Assembly: GCF_900176655.1 (NCBI RefSeq)
Contig: NZ_LT838842.1
Location: 83,880-147,879, forward strand
From: Collinsella vaginalis
GTDB lineage: Bacteria; Actinomycetota; Coriobacteriia; Coriobacteriales; Coriobacteriaceae
DNA: 64,000 nt
Direction of reading: 5' to 3'
Shown: positions 3,001-64,000 of the stretch, one piece after another
Layout: every line of letters begins with the position of its first letter
How positions within the stretch are numbered: the stretch's first letter is position 1
The notes under the pieces: model-generated
Told to the model about the DNA's origin: nothing
The model's database searches: none
Seen by the model: the letters and a program-made list of their open reading frames with translations, nothing else
Program-made: the position numbers and the translations under genes

Positions 3001-4506
3001 CTTCGCAAGGGCCCAGTAGTCGTAAGCGCACTCGACGGTCTTGTCGACGCGCCCCGGCACGTAACCCAGGGTGTCGGCGACGGAATCGTACGACGAGGCG
3101 ACGAACGCCTTTGCCGCCTCGTATGCCGCCTCGAGGTTGGGGATGTCCATGTAGCCCTTCGCGATGCCGTCCGCGAGGATGGCGATCGCATGCTCGTTTC
3201 GCACCGTGAGCACCGGTTGGGTGTCGTTGCCCCAGGTGCTGATGCCCGTCACGAACATGTCGGCGACGGACCTGATGATATCGGCGTACACGTCCGGGGC
3301 GATGAGGCCGATCATCGGGTACTTGCGGAAGTCGTCCCACATGGTCCAGGAGTCGTAATGCGTGTAGCCCGCGGCCGTGTAGACCTTGCCATCCGTGCCG
3401 CGGTAGGTTCCGCTCGTGCTCGTGGCGTTCACCGGCGTCGTGAACATGCGGTACAGCTCGGTGTAGAAGAGGCGAAGCCGTGTGCCGTCCGGGTCGCTCG
3501 TCTGGCTGCTCTGGATGGAGACCTTGCCGAGCATCTCATTCCACGCGGTGTCGGCCTGCGAGCGCACCTGGTCGAAGTCCCATGAGGAGTCCTCGGTCTT
3601 CATATCGATCTTGGCCTGCTCCGCGCTGATCGGCGAGATGGCGGTCTTCACCTGGACCTGCTGGCCCTTGGAGACCGCAAGCTCGAGCACGGCACCGAGA
3701 TCGTTGCCGGTGAGCTCGCGACTGTCCGTCAGCGTGTTGCCGTTCCAGGTGCGCACGCTGGTGACGGGCGTGTCGATCACCGTGTAGAAGTACATGGTGT
3801 ACTTTCCATGGCCGCTTACGTTGCGGCCGGAGAACCGACCGGAGAGGGCCACCGTCCCGTCATCGAGCGTCTCGACGTTCAGGATGGCGTCGCGCACGTC
3901 GGTGCCGTGGTAGGTGTAGTTGAGGTCGAGGACGATCGAGGCCGTTCCCGCTGAGGGGAAGGTGTAGCGCTGGAAGCCCGTTCGCGTCGTCGTGGTCATC
4001 TCAGCTTTGATCGATCCCATCGAGGACTGTGCGGTGCCCTCGTCTTGGCCCGTGTTGGGCGTGAGGTCCACCGCATAGTATCCGGGCGACGCCTCCTCCT
4101 GATCGTGACTGAACGACTGGGCGCGGCTCTCGAGTGTCGGCTTCCCGGTGTAGGTGACGTAGGTGGGCGTGATCAGCACGTCGCCGCCGGCACCCTGGCC
4201 GCCCACGCCCTCGATGCGCGTGTGCGAGAAACCCGAGATCTTGTCCTTGCTGTAATCGTAACCGGCATGATCGTCGGTCGCATGCGGGTAGGTGTCGGGG
4301 CTCAGCTTCACAATACCGTACGGTGAGATCGCCGCCGGCGTCTGCTGCCCGTTGTCCACCTCGGTGCCCATGAAGGGGTCGACGAGCGAGGTGAGGCTCA
4401 CCGGCTGGGCCCAGGTGCGGACCGCGGTGCCGGCAAGGGCGACAAGTGCGAGGACGATGGCAACCGGCAGGATGCGGCGCTTGAACGTCCTGGATGAAAG
4501 CGTCAT
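1..4506 (-). CDS. Secreted GH92 alpha-1,2-mannosidase with LamG, FIVAR and CBM6-like domains; 3' end outside window
   Basis: The reading frame is open from an ATG at 4506 to the window edge (1502 codons, no stop), so the C terminus is missing. A basic start and hydrophobic stretch (residues 10-30) form a signal peptide. The GH92 N-terminal signature follows (VDPFMGT near residue 42, LSPDTYPH, GYDYSKDKISGFSHT). The catalytic half shows a TNEID acid region near 615 and MDDDAG near 680, the position of the family's catalytic aspartates, then the GIFPLAPG and IGSPFF blocks. Beyond about residue 790 come Ig-like segments, a LamG/concanavalin fold (about 1003-1200), a FIVAR helical segment (1203-1268), a CBM6-like domain (1284-1415) and a second FIVAR. 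GH92 enzymes are calcium-dependent exo-mannosidases acting on high-mannose N-glycans and yeast mannan. An AAAGGAA ribosome site precedes the start. It lies 19 nt after the phosphatase gene, so the two are probably co-transcribed. A C-terminal wall anchor is likely but not visible. Confidence 0.9.
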   Translation of the reverse strand, partial: MTLSSRTFKRRILPVAIVLALVALAGTAVRTWAQPVSLTSLVDPFMGTEVDNGQQTPAAISPYGIVKLSPDTYPHATDDHAGYDYSKDKISGFSHTRIEGVGGQGAGGDVLITPTYVTYTGKPTLESRAQSFSHDQEEASPGYYAVDLTPNTGQDEGTAQSSMGSIKAEMTTTTRTGFQRYTFPSAGTASIVLDLNYTYHGTDVRDAILNVETLDDGTVALSGRFSGRNVSGHGKYTMYFYTVIDTPVTSVRTWNGNTLTDSRELTGNDLGAVLELAVSKGQQVQVKTAISPISAEQAKIDMKTEDSSWDFDQVRSQADTAWNEMLGKVSIQSSQTSDPDGTRLRLFYTELYRMFTTPVNATSTSGTYRGTDGKVYTAAGYTHYDSWTMWDDFRKYPMIGLIAPDVYADIIRSVADMFVTGISTWGNDTQPVLTVRNEHAIAILADGIAKGYMDIPNLEAAYEAAKAFVASSYDSVADTLGYVPGRVDKTVECAYDYWALAKIATALGHTDEAAQFSEYAMSYKNIYRADAVTAADGTSVGLLWPKDASGAWMNADPESYRANGLYQGTIWQYTWWDSNDVGGLMELMGGQSQMLSALSTLYGAKGEDADGSRMLHSNTNEIDLQTPYYFNIAGKPSETQYWVRQIYTGKTWNRYSGTGEYRPASYEQVYRLAPDGLLETMDDDAGTMAAMYVAAGMGIFPLAPGDTTFQIGSPFFESMTLDVGDGKTFTIRAEGTSPTAMYIQSAQLNGSSFDRTWLDTGEISRGGKLVLQMGEQPSDWASDGAAAPSASNSDTVSAYTSSLSLDASTIEAADGVVDASVKATLSGEAAFADADAVAAGVTLSGVPEGVEATVTRTSDTEVSIHLAGTIRDMTSENETFPVRISLADEALAGAAAAEVENRADTALGALRIVSRLTPTSLTVTAPTTVDYRVGDTLDLTGGSVSIAYGTSSYTRTLALSSDELEIGQLPRETGKGTVSVSYQGVSAGFEVNVSSGTLGANGEVASYTFDSSAGGRVSDTSGNGYDATLVNGAQVSNGVLKLDADASQYLNVPVGVLGSLGDDATISAWVNLASTENNQMLIGAGSDKSNFFVVALNNLLRSGLNLAGAGERRTAAQNGVSAGFGAYVTYVQSGQVAKLYLNGKLAATGTADSSLAGAVADPSSFFRVGGIDFWGDPYFDGSISSFTVYGKALSDQEVASEMARTDSRLADLIAEAQSLLDGGTLGADQAAALTSAQDAAAAVASFDGATSDQVDAAAEALATAISRATSGVTAQRSAYETLQAEERDSWSGGNLKTETSTDSTSNTTINNVGATYDGAWLGYAGLDFGSKGASTLTVRYVNNSARCGKNGRIEIRLDLLDSDPITTVSIPATGTNWNAYEQVTAALPETVTGTHTVYFTLRTDGGNGGFVANVDWFAFGRNDALERLTSVLTRARALLANGTSYLDADVSRLNAAIGVGEALLSKDGPAASELDAARLAIETAMGRMHAAVDLTALATALA

Positions 4507-4525
4507 GGAGGTTCCTTTCGCTTCG

Positions 4526-6573
4526 TTAGCGGCGCACGGCGCGGCGCCGGGAGCCGAGGGCGATGAAGATGATCGCCGTGGCGAGGGTGGCGAGAACGAC
4601 GATCGGGGTTGCATCGGCCGTCTTCGGCAGATCGCGCTTGGTGGTCTTCTGCGCGGAGCTCGTGGAAGACGCGGTGTCAGACCCCGTGTCGGCGGAACCG
4701 GAGTCCGCGTTGCCGGCGCCTGCATCCGATGAGCCCGTGCCATCATCCGTGCCGTTACCGGTGTTGCCGCCGTTATCCGTACCGCTATCGGTGCTGCCGT
4801 TGGTGCCGGTGCCATCGTCCGTACCACCGGTGTTGCCGCCGGTGTCGCCGCCGTTATCCGTGCCATTGCCGTTGTCGGTGTCACCACCCGTGCCCGAGCC
4901 GTCGCTCGCGGCGGGAACGGTCACCGTGCGAGTCGCGGTCTGGGTCTGCCCCTCGAAGGTGACCGTGTAGGTGATGGTGTAGACACCCGGCTCATCGGTG
5001 TCGACATAACGAATCTCGGATCCGTCCTAATCGGTCACGCTCACATGCACGAGGTCGGTAAGATCATCCCCCTCGGCGCTCGCCGCGCTCACGCCCTCCA
5101 TGGGGTCGAAGGTTGAGGACGCCTCAAGCGTACCGTCGGCGGGCGCGGTGATCGCCGGGGCATCGGTCCGCTTGATCGTGAAGCTGTCCATCTTCGTGAG
5201 CTCGCCGTTGTCTGCGTAGTACGTGTCAAGCGAGAGCGATTGCGCGCTGACGATGACGCTTGTGATGCTCTTACGGCTTGACTGGTCCTGCGCGGCCACA
5301 TACCCGGGAAGCGCCGAAGTGGAGAGATTCTCGTTCATCGGGTAGTACTTGGAGCCTGAGGACGAGTTCGCGGTGAGGTAGAGCACCTCGCCAGCCGCCG
5401 GGTTGCGAACCTCGGTCGGGACGGGCTCACCGGCGGAGACGTCGTTGCCCTCGGGGACGACCGGCGTCGTGCCGTTCATCATGTAGGTCCGCGTGAAATA
5501 GTGGTCGTGGCCCATGAGGACCGCGTCGATACCCAGCTCGGAGAAGATCTGGGGAAGTGTGTTGCGGAGATCCACGACGTCCTTGTCCCCGTAATGCCGC
5601 GCAAGACTGAACACCGAGTGGTGGAAGGCGACGATCTTCCACGTGGCGTCGGGATTCTGGGCGATCGCCTCCTGCATGAACTGGCGGTGCATCGCCACGC
5701 CCTCGTTGTTGGAGTTCAGCACCATAAACAGGACCCCGTTGTAGGTGAACCAGTAGTCACCGGACATCGAGCCCGTGTCCGTCCGAGCGCCAAGGCTCGA
5801 GACGTTCGGCAGGTTGAAGTAGTCGGAGTAGCGGGTGTTGCCGACGTCGTGGTTTCCCACGCTCACCGCCTGGGCGAGTGAGGTGAGGCCCGCCGCTGAG
5901 AAGTAGTTGTCGTACTGATCGTCGCTTTGTTTATCGTTCACCTGATCGCCGACGGAGATCATGAACGCGGGATTGAGCGCGTCGGCAAGGCTGAGCGTGT
6001 CGGACCAGCCAGCGGTATCGCTGCTGGTCGAGTTCGCACCGATCTGCGGGTCGCCGGCGAGCAGGAAGGTGAACGTGGACGAGGCCCCTTGGGCGCTGCT
6101 CGTGAACTCCGCGATCGGCGACCACGCCGCATCATTACCGACGCGGTAGAGGTAGGTGGTGTTCTCCTGGATATCGGTGATGGTCGCCTTGTAGGCGGTG
6201 TACCCGGTCCGCTGCGCCTCCGTGCCCGTGGCCGCAACGCGCACGGCCCCTTCCTCGGGGAACGAGCTTCCGTCCTCATAGGCCGCCGGCTTAGCGACGA
6301 ACTCGACATAGGAGGTCTCGCTTGAGGTGCTCAACCAGGAAAGGTTCCGCGAGGTCTCGGTGGCGCCCACCTCAAGGGAGACGTCGCGAACATTCGGGGC
6401 ATCGATAGACGGGTTGGACTCTTCGGTTGCGGAGGTTGCGGCGATGTCTGCTCCAGCCCGCTCAGGACCGAGCAATGACCCAGCACCCACGGCGGTGAGC
6501 GCAAGCGCCAGAATGACCAGGACGCCGATCCAGACCCTCGTGGATCCAGCACGCCGTCCTCTTGCAACCTCAT
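4526..6573 (-). pseudogene. Wall-anchored purple-acid-phosphatase-like metallophosphatase, disrupted by an amber codon and an N-terminal frameshift
   Basis: The central frame (stop at 5027) carries an FN3-like purple acid phosphatase N-terminal domain and a calcineurin-type phosphoesterase with GDPQIG, GDQVN, GNHDVG, FHHSVFS and GHDHYFTRTY. It ends in SVTD at a TAG (5027-5029). The same frame continues without another stop as DGSEIRYVDTDEPGVYTITY, a Gly/Asn/Thr-rich spacer, LPKTA, a hydrophobic helix and RRRAVRR. This matches the intact paralogue at 43.2-45.7 kb, so the TAG interrupts one ancestral gene. At the 5' end the best start (ATG at 6573, four bases after AAGGGGG) is one base out of frame with a clear signal-peptide segment (WIGVLVILALALTAVGA, about 6531-6481). 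The only in-frame common start, GTG at 6490, would omit most of the signal peptide. If translated at all, the product would lack secretion and anchoring. Two sequencing errors are the alternative. Confidence 0.8.
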
Positions 6574-14219: not shown

Positions 14220-15119
14220 CTAGCCGACGGCAATATACGGACCGGATTTCTCCATCTTCGCCGCTTGGCCCCACCAGCCCATCTCATCGAGGGCCGCGAT
14301 CGCGATGCGCTCGGCGTCCATCTGCGTCTCGCAGACGGCGAAGCTCATCGAACCGGAACCGCAGACATCCGCGACGCGGACCCCCGGCTGCTCGCGCAGC
14401 CAGGTGAGGACCTCACCCACCTCGGGTGAAACGCGCACCGCGGCCGGTCCCAGGTTGTTCGCGACATGCTCGAAAATAGCCGTCTCATCGTGCTCGCGCA
14501 TGGCGGTGAGCAGCGGCTCCAGAGGCGATGGTTCCGCAGGGTCCTCATCGAAGGCGCGGTATGCCGCGACGGCGGTGACGCCGCTGCCGTCGGCGCTCGG
14601 CTTCACAAGCGCCACCGGCGTGCCTGTGAGCGGGCGGAAGAGCTCCCGTAGGGTGTCTCCCCGCCCGTCTAGATACGCCGGGGGGCCATAGAGGAAGAAC
14701 GGCACGTCAGCGCCGATGGCGCGGGCAACCTCCTCGATGCGAGGATCGGCGGGGTCGATATCCCAAAGCTGGCAGATGCCGAGGATCACGGCGGCCGCAT
14801 CGGTGGATGGTCCGCCGAGGCCCGCACGGATGGGAATGTGCTTGTCGATGAGGATCGTGAACGAGGCCTCGCGCTCGAAGGCCTCCCCCATCGCCCGCGC
14901 CGCACGATACGCCGTGTTGGACTCCATGGGGAAATCCGCCGGCGGAACCGTATGCACAGCAAGCTCATGGGAAGGGGAGATCGCCACGGTATCCGCAAGG
15001 TCGATCGCCGTCATGACGGTATCGACCCGGTGGTAACCGTCCTCCTCGCACCCCGGATGCACGCCGAGGTACAGGTTGATCTTCGCGGGCGCGGTGATCA
15101 GGAGGAATTTTCGGGGCAT
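14220..15119 (-). CDS. ispE: 4-diphosphocytidyl-2-C-methyl-D-erythritol kinase
   Basis: GHMP-family kinase of the MEP (non-mevalonate) isoprenoid pathway; it phosphorylates the 2-hydroxyl of CDP-ME with ATP. The 299-residue protein opens with APAKINLYL, the family's N-terminal signature. The ATP-binding glycine-rich loop is PIRAGLGGPSTDAAA (about 96-110), where most homologues have GLGGGSSDAA, and the C-terminal GSGSMSF block is present. The ATG at 15119 lies 4 nt after the veg stop, so the two genes form one transcript. Longer in-frame starts upstream would run into veg and are rejected. Confidence 0.95.
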   Translation of the reverse strand: MPRKFLLITAPAKINLYLGVHPGCEEDGYHRVDTVMTAIDLADTVAISPSHELAVHTVPPADFPMESNTAYRAARAMGEAFEREASFTILIDKHIPIRAGLGGPSTDAAAVILGICQLWDIDPADPRIEEVARAIGADVPFFLYGPPAYLDGRGDTLRELFRPLTGTPVALVKPSADGSGVTAVAAYRAFDEDPAEPSPLEPLLTAMREHDETAIFEHVANNLGPAAVRVSPEVGEVLTWLREQPGVRVADVCGSGSMSFAVCETQMDAERIAIAALDEMGWWGQAAKMEKSGPYIAVG

Positions 15120-19519: not shown

Positions 19520-20496
19520 GGATCCTCCTTTTGGGTTCGGCCCACCATCATACCCGGATTGCACGGGACACGCGCTTTATAGACGGTCGATCCATCCGGG
19601 CAGCGAAACAACCGACTGAACAGGAGGTGCCTTCGACTTGCACGGGTTGGGCAATCTAAGTGATGGCCCTCGGAGGCGGAAGGCGGAATGGAATGGTTAT
19701 GACACCACCAGCTTGAACTACCAAAGACTACCAAAGGTAGTCGCATCGGTTCGGTTTGGACCACTATAGACAGGTCATTGGTTTGGGCTATTGCCGGTGG
19801 CGCTGCGCTTGCGTATGCCACCGGCATCGGGTTCCTAGAACAAATAGTCATATCTAATTGAATGGTTTATTATTCAAATTTATAAGTTTTTAATTCATAA
19901 TATTTTGTTCTATAATTCTCGATTTTTACAGGCACGAGTTTAGTAGTAGAAAATGTCAGATCTGCGTCATCCCAGAGACCGGGGCGGGGAAAGTTTGGCT
20001 TCCAGTCACTGAACCGCGCGTCGCAAAGAAATAACTATAAGCATATGTCTCTCATTTTGATCTTCCTTCTAGGGCCAGACACGCGAATGTACGCCATCTC
20101 AGCCGAACCATGCCTTGCATAGACTCAGATCTGACATTTTCTACTAGACGACCCTCCCGCAGCTTCGAATCCAGCTTGATTCGGTGCTTCTTCAGGCATC
20201 CACACGTATAGGTGATTGCAGATACCTCTGTGCATCTGAGGACATACCAACGCGAGGGCAATCTGTGTGACGCCCCCTGCATCTAGGATATGGACCCGGC
20301 ACCAGCAAGCAGGCTGCGCCCGCGCCGTGCCGGCCCATCCGGCCCTCGATGTGGTGCCTGCCCGAGCCCGTACAACGCGTTGTGACAAGCCCGGAGAAAA
20401 CGTAGCGATGAAACTGGGGTCAAGGGGGGCGAGGCCCCACCGCCAACCGTATGGCCATCCACCTGCTCATCCGGTTCAGGTATACTGTCGGGGCCC
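19520..20496. other. Gene-poor gap with AT-rich DNA and an inverted-repeat element
   Basis: No convincing gene in 977 bases. From 19855 to 19935 the DNA is strongly AT-rich, unlike its surroundings. Next comes the inverted-repeat element at 19944-20146. At 20480 a TATACT sequence is the likely -10 box of the tRNA-Val gene. Confidence 0.6.
19944..20146. repeat. MITE-like inverted-repeat element, copy 1
   Basis: A 203-bp element bounded by 25-bp terminal inverted repeats beginning TAGTAGAAAATGTCAGATCT (24 of 25 bases match between ends). The interior has no credible gene. Copy 2 at 35258-35440 has the same termini but a different interior, sharing only a 13-base block GCCAGACACGCGA. No transposase is nearby. 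No clear target duplication can be assigned; both ends abut TAG/CTA triplets. Confidence 0.8.
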
Positions 20497-35257: not shown

Positions 35258-35440
35258 TAGTAGAAAATGTCAGATCTGCGTCATTTTGCCAGACACGCGA
35301 TCCTGCATCTCGGGTTTTGAACATATTCCCATGTGCAATTTATGGGAACATCCATGTGGCCCAGGGCGTTTCGACATCTTTGGCACCCTTCTGAGGTTCC
35401 CTCGGCGGTCGGGGCGACGCAGATCTGACATTTTCTACTA
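35258..35440. repeat. MITE-like inverted-repeat element, copy 2
   Basis: A 183-bp element with perfect 25-bp terminal inverted repeats beginning TAGTAGAAAATGTCAGATCT; the match extends one base further on each side. The interior differs from copy 1 (19.9 kb) except for GCCAGACACGCGA. On the minus strand a 51-codon frame opens at the ATG inside one terminus and closes at a TGA inside the other, but there is no ribosome site. Confidence 0.82.
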
Positions 35441-35921
35441 GCATCCTCTGGCAAAATGGAGTGTTATTAAAATCTGCTCGTCAGAAGAAACATATATTTA
35501 GATATTTATATCGATTTATTTATATTCTCGGCGATAAGTGATACGTGCTGGACGTTGGCGTCGGGTCATACCACCGTTGGCCCGGATGCGGCGCCCAAAC
35601 CGCGCCCGAAACCGCATCGGTGATCAAGAGCCTGAGCCTCGTCAGCACGGTTACAGCCCTCTGATCGCTCCCCGCACCTGACGCCGCCGCCAGCGCCAGA
35701 CTGTATGCACGGAAGGACAGGAGAACGTCATCTCGGGGCACTCCCACGGGCGATCTGCATGAAGGTGCAGTCGAAAGGAGGTTTTTGGGCCTATTGGTGC
35801 GAACGACACGGAGCACCAAGCGCGAGGGCGTGGGCGCCGGCACAAAAGCTCGGCGCGCGATCTCTATGCGCAGCCTGGAGAGCGCTGCGCCCAGGCCCAC
35901 AACGCGATCCGCCCGCCGGGT
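35441..35921. other. Intergenic region downstream of metH
   Basis: No gene is seen in 481 bases. Positions 35450-35530 are AT-rich. A REP-like hairpin lies at about 35720-35790. No U-tract terminator was recognised for metH. Confidence 0.5.
35720..35790. repeat. REP-like hairpin, isolated copy
   Basis: Starts AGAACGTCATCTCGGGGC and ends AAAGGAGGTTTTTGGGC around a short inner inverted repeat. It is a degenerate member of the family clustered at 50.1-50.6 kb. Confidence 0.5.
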
Positions 35922-46544: not shown

Positions 46545-46612
46545 CAGAACGTCATCTCAAAGCGGTCACGCAGGCAATCTGCCTGAAAGCGCGGTCGAAC
46601 GTAGGTTTCGGG
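46545..46612. repeat. REP-like hairpin, isolated copy
   Basis: Begins CAGAACGTCATCTC, has the inner hairpin CAGGCA-ATC-TGCCTG, and ends GAACGTAGGTTTCGGG. It is the clearest inner stem of the family found in cluster at 50.1-50.6 kb. Confidence 0.65.
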
Positions 46613-46707: not shown

Positions 46708-46886
46708 CCTGGCCAAAAAAGGCGTCGAGGATGTAGTTTCCGAGATGCACGGCGTACCTAAAAGACGCCGGTTAGGTTTAAACGCATAGCCATATATGTT
46801 CAAACCTGTATTCCAAGGCAAAAGCAGCCACCTGAACACCTGAGATAGGAGTCGCGAAATACAGCCTCAACGCCCTTTTTGGCCAG
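46708..46886. repeat. TGGCCAAAAA inverted-repeat element, copy A
   Basis: CTGGCCAAAAAAGGCGTCGA, then GGATGTAGTTTC, on the plus strand (46708-46740) faces a minus-strand counterpart CTGGCCAAAAAGGGCGTTGA, then GGCTGTATTTC (46855-46886). The span is ~180 bp. Copy B at the window end (63743-63929) has the same layout. Confidence 0.7.
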
Positions 46887-47081: not shown

Positions 47082-49805
47082 CTACCCTGTGTTCTGGAGA
47101 CCCGCCGAGACACCGGTGACGGTTGCCAGGATCAAGCTCAGATACTCGGCCTTCGCCTCTTCGGAAAGCTCATCCTGCTGCATGCGGACGGTGCGCAGGG
47201 CGCGAACCTGGGCGATGGACAGTGCATCCACATAGGGGTTGCGCACGCGGACCGCGCGGCCGAGGACCCGGCGATGCTGCAGCGGCCAGTCATCGCCCAC
47301 GATGGCGAGGGTCCAGCGGCGCGTGAGGAGCATCTCGCGATAGACCTTCTCGGAGAGATCAGGTCGATCTCCCAAGGCCAGATAGAGCTTGGCGATGCGC
47401 AGGTCGGTCTTGGCGATCGACATCTCGATGTTGTCGATGAAGGTGGTGAAGAGCGGCCACTCCTTGTACGCGCGGCGCAGGAGGTCGAGGTCGCCGAGCT
47501 TCTCGCAGGCGGAACCGAGGCCGTACCAGGCAGCAAGGTTGATGCGCGCCTGGCTCCAGCTGAACACCCAGGGGATGGTTCGCAGGTCGTCGAGGGACTT
47601 GGCGCCGAGACCGCGCTTGGCCGGACGGCTGCCGATGGGCAAGAGACCGATCTCGGTGAGCGGCGTCACCGTGCTGAACCACGGCGTGAAATCGTCGGTG
47701 TGCAGCAGATCGAGGAAGGCGTCGTGCGAGGCGCGCGAGAGCGTCGACGCCATCGCGGCGTACTTCTCCGTCATCTCAGTGTTCGTGCGCTCCACCGACG
47801 GGGCGCTCGTGAGCAGCGTGGCCGCAGCAACGCTCTCCACATGACGTTCGGCGAGAGCCTGGTTGCCGTAGCGCGCGAAGATGACCTCACCCTGCTCGGT
47901 GAGCTTGAAGCAGCTGTTCACCGACCCACGGGGTTGGGCGAGCACCGCGCGGTTGGCCGGGCCGCCGCCACGGCCCACGGCCCCGCCGCGGCCGTGCATG
48001 AGCGTGAGGTCGATGTCGTTGCGCTCGGCCCAGGCCACGATCCGCTCCTCGGCGGCGTGCAGGGCGAGCGTGGCCGTGGTGGGGCCGGCGTCCTTCGAGG
48101 AATCCGAGTACCCGAGCATGATCTCGAGCTTGCGGCCGGTCTCGGCGAGGCGCTTCTGCACGCCGGGCACCTCGAGCATCCCATCGAGGACGTCGACGCA
48201 GTTCTCCAGATCCTCAAGCTGCTCGAACAGCGGGACCACATCGATCACCGGCACGTCCTCAACGTGCGCGAAGGCGAGGTTCGCGAGCTCGTAGACGTCC
48301 GCCACATTCTGGGCGCTCTTGGTGAAGGAGATGATGTAGCGGCGGGCCGCCTTCAAACCAAACCGGCGCTGGATCATGCCGAGGGCGCGGAAGGTGTCGA
48401 GCACCTCGCGGGTCATCGGGTCAAGCTTGCCCTGGCGGCCATGCTCGCGGATATCGGCCAGCGCGCGGCTGTGCACGACGGAGTGCTGACGGAACTCGGT
48501 CTCGACCATATGGAAGCCGAAGGTCTCCACCTGCCAGATGATCGTCTGAACCGGGCCGTAGGCGGCGCGGACGGCACCCGCCTCGGCGAGTGACCGCTGC
48601 ACGACGCGCAGATCTTCGAGGAACTCATCGGCATTGCGGTACATGGTGTCGGCCACGCGGCGGACCGTCGCATTCAGACGCTCGGCCATGACGATCATGA
48701 CGGCGCGGTGCATCTCGGAGGCGGAGATCCCCATGGCGCGCTCGGTCAGGATCTCGCTGAGCTCGACCTGATGGTTCCACAGGTTGATGAGCTCCTCTGA
48801 AGGCGGCGTGTAGCGGGCCTCGAGCGTGAGGTTGCGGCCCACGCGGCGGCACTTGTCCTCGAGCTTGCCGATCATGTGCGTCGCGTACTTGTGGGCCACC
48901 TCGCGGCTGACCTTGGCCGTCACGTTGGGGTTGCCGTCGCGGTCCGTGCCGATCCAGCTGCCGGGATGGAAGAACGCCGGGCAGAGCGGAGGCACGGTGC
49001 CCGCGCGCTCGCCGAGCATCCAGTCGTCGAAACGGCGGTAGACCTCGGGAATGGTGTCGAAAAGCGTGTTGTCGAAGATATCGATGATCGTGTCGGCTTC
49101 CTCGACGGGCGTAGGCTTCTTGAGCGCCACGGGCGAGGTGCGCACGAGGGCGTCGATCTCCTGGAGCATGTGGCGCTCGTTCTCCATGAGGTCGGTGCCG
49201 CCGAGAAGGGGCCGCTCCTCCAGAAGGCGGGCGATGCGGCGGATCTTGCCCTCAACGGCCTTGCGGCGCGCCTCGGTGGGGTGCGCGGTGAAGACCGGGT
49301 GGAACTCGAGGCGGTTCAGCAGCTCGACGGCATGCTCGCGGCCCACCTCGTCCACCAGCTGGTGGAAGGCAACCGTGAGCTCGTTTGCCGGATCGGCCGG
49401 CGTGCCCGCAACAGCGTCGAGCACGACGCCGCCCTCGCGCTCGCGGAGCGATTGGACGCGGTAGTTCTCCTCAGAGAGGTTCGCCAGGTGGAAGAAGGAG
49501 GTGAAGGCGCGAACCAGGACCTGCGCGTGGTCGATATCGAGGCGGTCGATGAGGGCCACGGCATCGCGGAAGGCGGCGGCGCCCGCTCCGCTCTCGGACG
49601 GGATGCCCTCGGCGTCGATGGCCTCGCTCACGGCGTCGGTGCCGGGGTTGCCCTCGTTGGCCGTGACCACGCAGGCCAGGAGCTCGTCGAAAAGGCTCCG
49701 CACCTGTGGGTCGTACTCGTCGAGGACCTTGCGCTCCAGGCGCAGGAACAGCGCCAGATGGTCGCGTAGGCTCTCAGGGATATCGATCTCGGTGATCTCG
49801 GACAA
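47082..49805 (-). CDS. ppc: Phosphoenolpyruvate carboxylase
   Basis: Anaplerotic carboxylation of PEP to oxaloacetate. The ~907-residue enzyme has the catalytic histidine block VFTAHPTEARRKAV, the LMLGYSDSSKDAGP-type substrate loop, MHGRGGAVGRGGGPANRAV and the invariant C-terminal QNTG. The start is the TTG at 49805, after GGAGGGGG. The ATG further upstream (49859) would lie before the TATAAT at 49842-49847, which fits a promoter -10 box, so it cannot be the start from that promoter. Confidence 0.94.
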   Translation of the reverse strand: MSEITEIDIPESLRDHLALFLRLERKVLDEYDPQVRSLFDELLACVVTANEGNPGTDAVSEAIDAEGIPSESGAGAAAFRDAVALIDRLDIDHAQVLVRAFTSFFHLANLSEENYRVQSLREREGGVVLDAVAGTPADPANELTVAFHQLVDEVGREHAVELLNRLEFHPVFTAHPTEARRKAVEGKIRRIARLLEERPLLGGTDLMENERHMLQEIDALVRTSPVALKKPTPVEEADTIIDIFDNTLFDTIPEVYRRFDDWMLGERAGTVPPLCPAFFHPGSWIGTDRDGNPNVTAKVSREVAHKYATHMIGKLEDKCRRVGRNLTLEARYTPPSEELINLWNHQVELSEILTERAMGISASEMHRAVMIVMAERLNATVRRVADTMYRNADEFLEDLRVVQRSLAEAGAVRAAYGPVQTIIWQVETFGFHMVETEFRQHSVVHSRALADIREHGRQGKLDPMTREVLDTFRALGMIQRRFGLKAARRYIISFTKSAQNVADVYELANLAFAHVEDVPVIDVVPLFEQLEDLENCVDVLDGMLEVPGVQKRLAETGRKLEIMLGYSDSSKDAGPTTATLALHAAEERIVAWAERNDIDLTLMHGRGGAVGRGGGPANRAVLAQPRGSVNSCFKLTEQGEVIFARYGNQALAERHVESVAAATLLTSAPSVERTNTEMTEKYAAMASTLSRASHDAFLDLLHTDDFTPWFSTVTPLTEIGLLPIGSRPAKRGLGAKSLDDLRTIPWVFSWSQARINLAAWYGLGSACEKLGDLDLLRRAYKEWPLFTTFIDNIEMSIAKTDLRIAKLYLALGDRPDLSEKVYREMLLTRRWTLAIVGDDWPLQHRRVLGRAVRVRNPYVDALSIAQVRALRTVRMQQDELSEEAKAEYLSLILATVTGVSAGLQNTG

Positions 49806-49841
49806 AACGCGTCCCCCTCCGTTTTTGGCCAGTGCCTGCCC

Positions 49842-49847
49842 ATTATA
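49842..49847 (-). promoter_or_regulatory. -10 box of ppc
   Basis: TATAAT on the minus strand, about 37 nt upstream of the TTG start. It decides against the longer ATG start. Confidence 0.55.
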
Positions 49848-49859
49848 GGACGAACGCAT

Positions 49860-50729
49860 TTAGCGCTTTATTACGCAAAAGTAAATCATGCGTTTCCATA
49901 AAATCGGCGAACGGGGGTTTCAAGACTGTGAACAGCAGCGGCGAGGGTTGCGGACGGGTGGGTGAGTTGGGGTGGCGTGCGCACGCTCGCAAGCGGCTGC
50001 ACGGGCATGATGGCGCGCAAAGCGCGGGCGACCCAGGTGACGGCGGTCCCAAAGAGAACTAGGATCGGTCTCGACCCGAAAACCTGGTGTGGCTGCCCGT
50101 CATGCGCGCAAAACGTACTTTCCCGGTCGTCTCCGAGCAGGCATCGCTCGGTGCGTCCCAATTCGCTTGTAAAACGTACTTTCCTGACCGCCTCCAGGCA
50201 AATTGCTTGGCAGGGCGCCTCGAAAAGACGTTTTCGGGATGAGATCGGCAGCCCGGCGGCTCAGAGACACGACGCCAACGTTCGACACGCAACCCAACAC
50301 CGCTGCGGCGAACCCACTTCTGCTCGTAAACGTGCTTTCAAGCCGCATCCGGGTAACGCGCCCCGCCACGGATCCGGGCTCACGAGCAAAACGTCATCTC
50401 GAAGCTGTTCCCAGGCAAATCGCCGAGAAAACGACATCGAGATGACGTTTTCCCGGGCAGAATCGACAGCAACTAGCCGGTTCAGAAAACCCTCTTCTGG
50501 GCCCTATCCCCACCACCCGTCATGCAGAGGGACTAAAGCATACTTTCAGACCCATCTCTTAGGCATTCTGCCTGGAGACGGGCTCGAGATGACGTTTTCC
50601 ACTTTAAGCGTGTCGATCCGCCTCCTACGCACCGCAAGCTCCAGCAGCCCGCGGCGCGCACTCCACGCTGAAGCAGCCTCACGCGGTGGCCGCACACGCG
50701 GCAAGCCCCAGGGACCCGGCCACTTGCCC
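49860..50729. other. Gap between ppc and hisS filled with REP-like repeats
   Basis: 870 bases with no gene. 50108-50600 is a cluster of large imperfect hairpins (separate entry). The remaining parts show no recognised feature. Confidence 0.7.
50108..50600. repeat. Cluster of five REP-like palindromic repeats
   Basis: Five degenerate copies of a ~65-70-bp hairpin start near 50108, 50167, 50333, 50384 and 50533. The best (50384-50453) opens GCAAAACGTCATCTCGA and closes TCGAGATGACGTTTTCCCG. A central small stem (AGGCA-N3-TGCCT in the best copies) is framed by GC-rich inner arms. Variant outer arms read AAACGTACTTTC. The cluster occupies most of the ppc-hisS gap. No REP-associated transposase is in the window. 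Confidence 0.8.
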
Positions 50730-52046
50730 TCACCCCAGGTGCGTCGACACCCACGCCGCCACCTCGGCACGCGGCACGAGCTCCTCCTCGTGCGTGCCCA
50801 GGTCGCGCACCTTGACAGCGCCGGCGGCGAGCTCGTCCTCCCCTATGATGACAATCAGGCGAGACCCGAGCTTGTCGGCCTGCTTGAACTGGCTCTTGAG
50901 CGATCGGCCCTGGTAATCGGCCTCGGTGCGAACGCCCGCACCCCGCAGGGCGCGGCAGACGGCGAACGCCTCACCGCGGAGCTCCGCCCCGGCATTCGCC
51001 ACGTACACGCTGGGCTCCTCATCGCTTCCCAGATCGCCGCCGAAGGCCTCGAGCGCGAGCAGGGCGCGCTCGAAACCCACGGCGAACCCGACGCCCGCCG
51101 TGGGCTTGCCGCCCTCGAGCTCCACGAGACCGTCGTAGCGCCCTCCGCCGCCGATGGAGCCCACGCCCGCACCGGGCGCCTCGACCTCGAACACCGTGCG
51201 CGTGTAGTAATCGAGGCCGCGGACGAGGGTCGGGTCCTCCACGTAGGCCACGCCCGCCTCGTCGAGATAGCGCTTGACCTGGTCATAGTGAGTCGCGCAC
51301 TCATCGCAGAGGTGGTCGGGGGCGAGCGGGGCGCTCGCCATGACCGCACGGCACGACTCGTTCTTGCAGTCGAAGGCGCGCAGCGGGTTGATCTCAGCGC
51401 GCTCGAGGCATTCATCGCACATCTCGTCTGCGTGAGCGAGGATGAAATCGCGGACGAGATCGCGGTATGCCGGACGGCACGTGGGGTCGCCCATGGAGTT
51501 GATGAGCAGCCGGAGCTTTGAGACGTCGAAGCCCAGGCGCCGGTAGAAGTCCATGAGCATGATGATGCACTCGGCGTCGGCTGCCGGGTCGGGAGCCCCG
51601 AGCCACTCGATCCCCACCTGGTGGAACTGGCGCAGACGGCCCTTCTGTGGGCGCTCACCGCGGAACATCGCCTCGGCGTAGTAGCCCTTGAACGGGGCGG
51701 CGCCCTGCGGCACCAGGTTGTTCTCGACCACAGCGCGCACCACGCCCGCCGTGCCCTCGGGGCGGAGCGCCAGGCGCTGCTTGGGCTTCAGGGCCGCGTC
51801 GCTCCCCTCCTCGAGCACGCGCGCGAAGTTGGCGCCCGAGAACACGCGGAACATCTCCTTGCGCACCACGTCCGTGGACTGGCCGATGCCGTGCACGAAG
51901 ACATCGAGCTGCTCGATAGCCGGCGTCTCAACGGGCGAGAAGCCGTATGGGCCGAACGTCTCGGCGGCGATCTCCTGCATCCGCTGCCACGCGCGCATCT
52001 CGCGCCCCATGAGGTCCTTGGTTCCCTCTGCCTTCTGTGCCTGCAT
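50730..52046 (-). CDS. hisS: Histidyl-tRNA synthetase
   Basis: Class II synthetase charging tRNA-His. At 438 residues it is of normal length. Motif 1 lies near PVETPAIEQLDVF, motif 2 is FRGERPQKGRLRQFHQVGIE, and the histidine-specific blocks are LVRGLDYYTRTVFE and GGGRYDGLVE. The C-terminal anticodon-binding domain follows. The ATG at 52046 follows GAGAGGA; a longer frame upstream has no site. In many bacteria hisS precedes aspS, but here they are 42 kb apart. Confidence 0.96.
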   Translation of the reverse strand: MQAQKAEGTKDLMGREMRAWQRMQEIAAETFGPYGFSPVETPAIEQLDVFVHGIGQSTDVVRKEMFRVFSGANFARVLEEGSDAALKPKQRLALRPEGTAGVVRAVVENNLVPQGAAPFKGYYAEAMFRGERPQKGRLRQFHQVGIEWLGAPDPAADAECIIMLMDFYRRLGFDVSKLRLLINSMGDPTCRPAYRDLVRDFILAHADEMCDECLERAEINPLRAFDCKNESCRAVMASAPLAPDHLCDECATHYDQVKRYLDEAGVAYVEDPTLVRGLDYYTRTVFEVEAPGAGVGSIGGGGRYDGLVELEGGKPTAGVGFAVGFERALLALEAFGGDLGSDEEPSVYVANAGAELRGEAFAVCRALRGAGVRTEADYQGRSLKSQFKQADKLGSRLIVIIGEDELAAGAVKVRDLGTHEEELVPRAEVAAWVSTHLG

Positions 52047-52392
52047 GTCGTTCCTCTCCACAGCCGTTTTCCGTGCCCCATTATACGTGGCTCCCAAGCG
52101 CGCGCGGAGGAGGGCAGAATGACGGAGCATAGGGAGGATCGAAAGGGGCTACCCCGGGTGTGCGCGCAGGAGGGCGCGGGCAGCATCGATGATCAGCGAC
52201 TTCGTGTCTGCCCCGATGGCGCGCGGAGGAGGGATAAGGCGACGCGGCGCCATGAAGATAGGGTGGCGGCCGCGGCCGTGCGATCCGATACGACATCCGA
52301 ACGTCTGAAACAGGGCCATCGGGGAAAGATAGGTCATAGGTCATTGCATCCCCATTTCAACCGGTGCCTTTTGACACCCGAAAGGAGCACCC

Positions 52393-63588: not shown

Positions 63589-64000
63589 ACGCACATCACC
63601 TCTTACGGATCGTCTCCGCAACATTGGCACAGCGAGAACTTCATAGCCACGGCGGAAGGCGCGCGTCACTCAGGAGCCCCGCCTCATCTTTTTAGCCCCG
63701 AAGCCATCCGCGCAGTGCTTCATGCTGCACGATTCTGCTCGCCTGGCCAAAAACATGGTTGAGGCTGTATTTATGAGATGGCGTTTGAACTTTGGAAGCC
63801 CAGATCTCCGGCAGCACGTCCTCAGATTATAGAAATAAAATACATATATCTATAAATGTAAATGATATTTAGCAGACTGATACGCGGGCTGATTCCAAAA
63901 ATACATCCTCGATGCACTTTTTGGCCAAGCGCACGAATTCTCACATGTCATCAAGACTACTCAAGGATAGAGACGGCAGAATCCTCGAGCGTAACAGTGT
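63589..64000. other. Non-coding end of window with a repeat element
   Basis: No gene is seen. 63743-63929 is copy B of the TGGCCAAAAA inverted-repeat element; the rest has no recognised feature. A terminator for the DeoR gene was not identified. Confidence 0.6.
63743..63929. repeat. TGGCCAAAAA inverted-repeat element, copy B
   Basis: CTGGCCAAAAACATGGTTGA then GGCTGTATTT (63743-63772) faces, on the minus strand, TTGGCCAAAAAGTGCATCGA then GGATGTATTT (63898-63929). The ~185-bp span and AT-rich interior match copy A in length but not sequence. Confidence 0.7.

Follow-up and report, generated by a model that had tools for sequence, protein, structure and literature searches.

A REPIN-like family of imperfect palindromes of exactly 64 bp in Collinsella vaginalis and its differently armed counterpart in a sister species

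REP sequences and REPINs are considered to need RAYT transposases. REPINs are inverted doublets held at a fixed distance around a variable spacer, with singlets as their remnants (Bertels and Rainey 2011, PMC3116915), while CGTC-tagged REPs present an unpaired CGTC tag followed by a stem of 8-9 bp that begins with AT and a loop of 4-5 bases (Di Nocera et al. 2013, PMC3733652; the text of this paper nowhere mentions Actinobacteria, Coriobacteri- or Collinsella). The palindromes described here were characterised in a stretch of 64,000 nucleotides of Collinsella vaginalis DNA (the window) and in the one genome to which it belongs, an assembly of 2,161,687 bases in 23 contigs that is 92.6% complete. 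Like REPINs (PMC3116915), they have two conserved motifs in inverted orientation whose distance is fixed while the spacer varies; the resemblance extends to their intergenic location, clusters and lone-half remnants, and to the two alternative folds available to them, a long hairpin or two half hairpins. Conversely, no RAYT has been detected for the C. vaginalis family, its units measure exactly 64 bp and variants of nearby length were not encountered, its main class lacks a conserved long hairpin, and a sister species has different arms.

With the CGTC-tagged REPs (PMC3733652) the family shares the existence of REP dimers without a known transposase, and the most usual arm of C. vaginalis, termed A below, contains CGTC. 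This CGTC is nonetheless paired with the right arm in copies that carry two A arms, the arms of the sister species are devoid of CGTC, and the 8-9 bp stem after the A-arm CGTC is, by inspection, not formed in most copies. An unpaired GTAG at the base of the palindrome was not found either, since the A, B and sister arms have no GTAG and that of the C-type right arm sits inside the arm. As in BIMEs, the REP/iREP pairs with linkers (PMC8266576), imperfect palindromes form part of larger units, with conserved flanks and a tandem spacing of ~130-165 bp in the A/C class; in this comparison, which is one of anatomy and not of sequence, the core fixed at 64 bp and the lack of a GTAG tag set the C. 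vaginalis family apart. MITEs are similarly short, non-autonomous and numerous, with inverted ends, but neither a related full-length transposon nor a target-site duplication was found at the sampled loci. ERIC sequences are also imperfect palindromes in larger units, from which the present family differs, again by anatomy and not by sequence, in its core fixed at 64 bp. The anatomy is thus REPIN-like, although no RAYT was found, neither a GTAG nor a CGTC tag fits, and the long hairpin is not conserved in the main class.

The element is a 64-bp imperfect palindrome with the usual left arm AAAACGTCATCTCG (A) and a right arm that, read inwards, is AAAACCTACTTTCG (C), AAAACGTACTTTCG (B) or A. The preliminary description had proposed two outer-arm sub-types, which were borne out, and the C type, which provides the largest class with its right arm, has to be added as a third. 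The arm pattern AAACGTNMTYTC has 74 exact matches genome-wide as opposed to 8 for the reversed control, and AAACGTCATCTCGA has 41 as opposed to 0; the repeat occurs far above chance. Further copies elsewhere in the genome, on which the preliminary description had made its reading depend, are represented by at least 87 full copies in addition to lone halves, recovered by a profile search around arm matches; these counts are lower bounds, as copies in which both arms have decayed go uncounted. A small central stem had also been proposed, and AGGC-loop-GCCT does often lie at the centre of the element, a feature that can be asserted for many copies and not for all.

The length of the element appears to be rigid. 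When arms that converge within 160 bp of each other were matched into pairs, a procedure that imposed no length, 65 of the 70 pairs measured exactly 64 bp between their outer ends and none fell at 60-63 or 65-68 bp; the alignment of 82 copies did require 64 bp and was left out of this claim. The two inverted sequences at a preferred distance that characterise REPINs were therefore found in 65 pairs here and in 46 in the sister species. From copy to copy, an average of ~44% of spacer sites differ in C. vaginalis and 50% in the sister, and overall the differences amount to 37-50% in the spacers and 10-29% in the arms, the conservation of the arms being partly due to the copies having been found by them, from which the length test is free. 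A spacer less conserved than the ends, likewise typical of REPINs, is thus present in copies that were found by their arms. Furthermore, the distance between neighbours within clusters varies from about 90 to 250 bp. Since both the spacers and the distances between elements are variable, small insertions and deletions do happen outside, and it therefore seems that selection or the mode of copying constrains the length within the element.

In the window, the gap between ppc and hisS had been described as containing five palindromes of ~65-70 bp in the interval 50108-50600. Dispersed imperfect palindromes are indeed present there, but only three are complete, the other two being left halves, and the elements of the window measure 64 bp (Table 1). 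The single copies reported at 35.7 and 46.5 kb were recovered as well, which brings the window to five full elements, two of them single and three in the cluster, and two left halves. Each lone left half begins 61 bp ahead of the next element. The gap is ~806 bp long in C. vaginalis versus ~145 bp in the sister species, where it holds no elements. A comparison of the window with Rfam returned only tRNAs and aspS above threshold, and the palindromes match no curated RNA family.

Table 1. Elements and bordering genes in the window, with examples from the sister species.
Feature	Position	Strand	Remarks
Full 64-bp element	35722-35785	+	A/C class, flanks conserved; nhmmer E 1.8e-16
Full 64-bp element	46546-46609	+	A/C class, flanks conserved; nhmmer E 8.1e-17
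ppc, phosphoenolpyruvate carboxylase	47082-49859	-	Pfam PF00311; borders the cluster
Lone left half	50110-50140	+	AAAACGTACTTTCC...; right arm not recognisable; weak nhmmer half match
Full 64-bp element	50171-50234	-	B-type arms AAAACGTACTTTC.../...GAAAAGACGTTTT; nhmmer E 2.2e-13
Degenerate lone left half	50327-50358	+	TAAACGTGCTTTC...; no recognisable right arm; inner end guessed
Full 64-bp element	50388-50451	-	A/A arms AAAACGTCATCTCG...CGAGATGACGTTTT; nhmmer E 8e-16
Full 64-bp element	50535-50598	+	Degenerate B-type left arm AAAGCATACTTTC, A-type right arm; nhmmer E 2.2e-11
hisS, histidyl-tRNA synthetase	50730-52130	-	Pfam PF13393; borders the cluster on the other side
Sister 64-bp palindromes, examples	L188:2672-2735, 4683-4746, 5298-5361		

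Folding differs markedly between classes. The A/A class folds well, with a mean z of -4.4, and its member at 50388 is the strongest hairpin of the window (RNA fold z -5.0); the family of the sister species also forms strong hairpins (z -6.7). The A/C class, the largest, is barely better than shuffled sequence (z -1.1), and its arms pair at ~9 of 14 positions. Compensatory changes in the arms, another expectation of the preliminary description, did not appear within the genome: the 82-copy alignment gave no covariation for in-register pairing, and neither register 65 nor shifted registers supported any stem. A strong negative covariation signal at 16-49 and 18-47, which persists after reorienting the copies, is taken to reflect subfamily structure. 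Each half-element has a potential short inverted repeat of its own that combines AAAACG and CGTTTY (at 19-24); it is clear for the right half but weak for the left one, and the sister counterpart is ATGCCG with CGGCAT at 20-25. What the commonest subclass conserves is the arms and the spacing only, not the long hairpin. 

Nearly all copies are intergenic, and the 3 of 82 that lie in predicted frames are in low-scoring or possibly overlong ones from a simple codon-usage gene call. Their neighbours are ordinary chromosomal genes, mostly co-directional or convergent, with a divergent gene pair at one locus. This placement, together with the strong folding of the A/A and sister classes, could be expected of elements acting at the RNA level, namely 3' hairpins that serve as terminators or mRNA stabilisers and are kept for that function. 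Such a role is nevertheless very improbable, given that the commonest class folds poorly, that no covariation was seen, that terminator-like sites are not in excess in the ppc-hisS gap, and that both orientations relative to transcription occur.

The family appears to be restricted to its species. None of the 66 further Coriobacteriaceae genomes contains the A arm, and among the order's other 396 genomes it was found only as single matches in nine. In viral contigs only isolated 15-16-mer matches were seen, and the full element of the C. vaginalis family was absent. The closest relative compared, Coriobacteriaceae SIG40 (G029/G067), whose Ppc is 92% identical, lacks the C. vaginalis arms and presents a family of its own, in which ATGCCGAGCGTTCGTAAT, 28 bases and ATTACGAACGCTCGGCAT add up to exactly 64 bp. 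The core of the sister arm, GAGCGTTCGTRAT, has 133 exact matches in that genome, none in the control and no more than one in each of the other family genomes, and its convergent arms form 46 pairs at exactly 64 bp with none at 60-63 or 65-68 bp. Counted by eye, the sister arm agrees with the B arm at 8 of 14 bases in equal positions, a likeness that may hint, not strongly, at common descent. Within 100 kb taken from a sister contig, the stretch that could be aligned to the window had no element position common to both species. As no 64-bp peak emerged in ten other Coriobacteriaceae genomes, of which 80 kb each were sampled, only these two species are known to date to have the frame. The unusual feature of the system is this rigid length, common to two families with unrelated-looking arms. 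A repeat of equal length and different sequence in the sister suggests, at the level of sequence, what may be a fast-changing family of parasitic DNA. The central motifs GGCARATYTGCC and GCAGATTTGCC were considered as a possible connection with other repeats of Collinsella and were rejected, with no shared enriched core; the 7 matches of GCAGATTTGCC in genome G035 lie inside an unrelated repeat of that genome.

The surroundings of the copies also bear on their origin. In A/C copies at unrelated loci the conservation extends for another 20-35 bp to either side, and such copies often lie in tandem groups, about 130-165 bp apart; together these features point to a larger unit having been duplicated locally. 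One could alternatively regard the arms as paired sites of a species-specific DNA-binding protein, such as a nucleoid or chromosome-organising factor or a global regulator, with half-sites about six helical turns apart that are spread or retained by selection to the benefit of the host. The exact 64-bp spacing (~6.1 turns), kept while the hairpin pairing of the A/C class is not, and the higher conservation of the arms than of the spacer would suit this proposal. It is considered improbable all the same, because the flanks shared by A/C copies at unrelated loci argue for copying by descent and not for convergent sites, while the arms differ between two such close sisters, no positions are common to them, and tandem copies are clustered in single gaps.

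With regard to a mobilising enzyme, Y1_Tnp proteins (PF01797) of RAYT type are present in 55 of the 67 family genomes, so REP biology is not foreign to this family. A search of the genome for a RAYT, which the preliminary description had recommended, gave no PF01797 hit in C. vaginalis or in the sister, whose assembly is 98% complete. Moreover, a profile built from five local RAYTs had no match at E<=10 in either species, and the same profile picks up four genes in the two positive controls. The absence from C. vaginalis is not final, since the assembly is only 92.6% complete. No other mobilising gene was seen in the sampled neighbourhoods of the copies, and among the sampled loci there was no target-site duplication, with no clean empty site aligned. 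These could still be ordinary RAYT-borne REPINs whose RAYT was lost or missed and whose population is now decaying. Their anatomy matches that of REPINs (PMC3116915), RAYT-type genes are common in the family, part of the assembly is missing, and the copies are old judging by their spacer differences (44%). What makes this account unlikely is the lack of a RAYT in the sister too, even with the local profile; the two species nevertheless differ in their arms, which implies that the arms changed in lineages that are both now without one. In addition, the clear palindromes adjoining RAYTs in relatives are 33-43 bp long, not 64, and the GTAG tag is missing. The label REP-like therefore fits in that the elements are dispersed, intergenic, inverted, clustered and species-specific, but not with respect to the RAYT or to the hairpin of the commonest subclass.

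The explanation preferred here, with a probability of roughly two in three, is that the palindromes are non-autonomous mobile elements of a REPIN-like kind, with rigid geometry, species-specific arms and a mobiliser that may be lost, diverged or of another kind. Mobility is inferred from the copy number, the species restriction and the non-shared sites. The unit would consist of two inverted half-elements of ~32 bp, the outer 14 bp of each acting as a conserved recognition motif, so that two such motifs stand exactly 64 bp apart from outer end to outer end. A presumably dimeric enzyme would read both motifs and copy the unit into intergenic DNA, and clusters would then arise as units of ~130-160 bp are duplicated locally in tandem. 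The sequence of the arms would change fast and family-wide together, tracking the specificity of the enzyme in what may be co-evolution, and the sister species would thus combine the same 64-bp frame with other arms. This enzyme, apparently not the usual RAYT, may no longer be present, may be encoded in the ~7% that the assembly lacks or may be a member of a different family. A more doubtful idea is that of a class of small replicators defined by geometry and not by sequence, as inverted motifs of 14-18 bp exactly 64 bp apart that are mobilised by a non-RAYT enzyme with a specificity switched between the sisters under an unchanged frame. The two sisters, both rich in REPIN-like units that are equal and rigid in length but have different arms, and both without a detected RAYT, constitute a clean natural pair for questions about the enzyme that mobilises repeats of this type and about changes in its specificity. 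They also provide a case of length conserved despite an unconserved spacer and, in the main class, an unconserved hairpin.

Several other repeats were observed alongside these elements. At G000:C2:724359-724533 and 726445-726619, direct half-elements with ~50-bp spacing occur in two places separated by 2086 bp; their layout differs from that of the inverted 64-bp unit. The sister loci L188 and L189 also hold a further repeated word, ACTGGTACAAGT. On sister contig G067:C18 (30697-33385 of a 100-kb piece starting at 15001), two identical direct 64-bp elements flank ~2.56 kb with a transposase-like frame, recognised by eye, and a putative secreted protein; the unaligned gap of the window that matches this segment is 44 bp. 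More MITE-like are 19947-20143 and 35261-35437 of the window (197 and 177 bp), which have perfect 18-bp inverted ends TAGAAAATGTCAGATCTG, 12-mers of which were encountered six times in the genome sequence sampled. Another MITE-like candidate at 46711-46884 (174 bp), with near-perfect 20-bp inverted ends GGCCAAAAARGGCGTYGAGG, adjoins the 46546 element, and a degenerate third end of this type lies at 63907-63926. In Collinsella sp. AK_207A (L088, ~4390-4760), the region upstream of ppc contains an unrelated tandem repeat of ~30 bp (GGTTGCTAAGCAGATTTGCCACCAGGAGGA and variants). Finally, genome G003 (L262, L265) contains another palindrome family around GATATC, with a ~42-bp core and a variable outer stem, for instance at L262:4489-4558.
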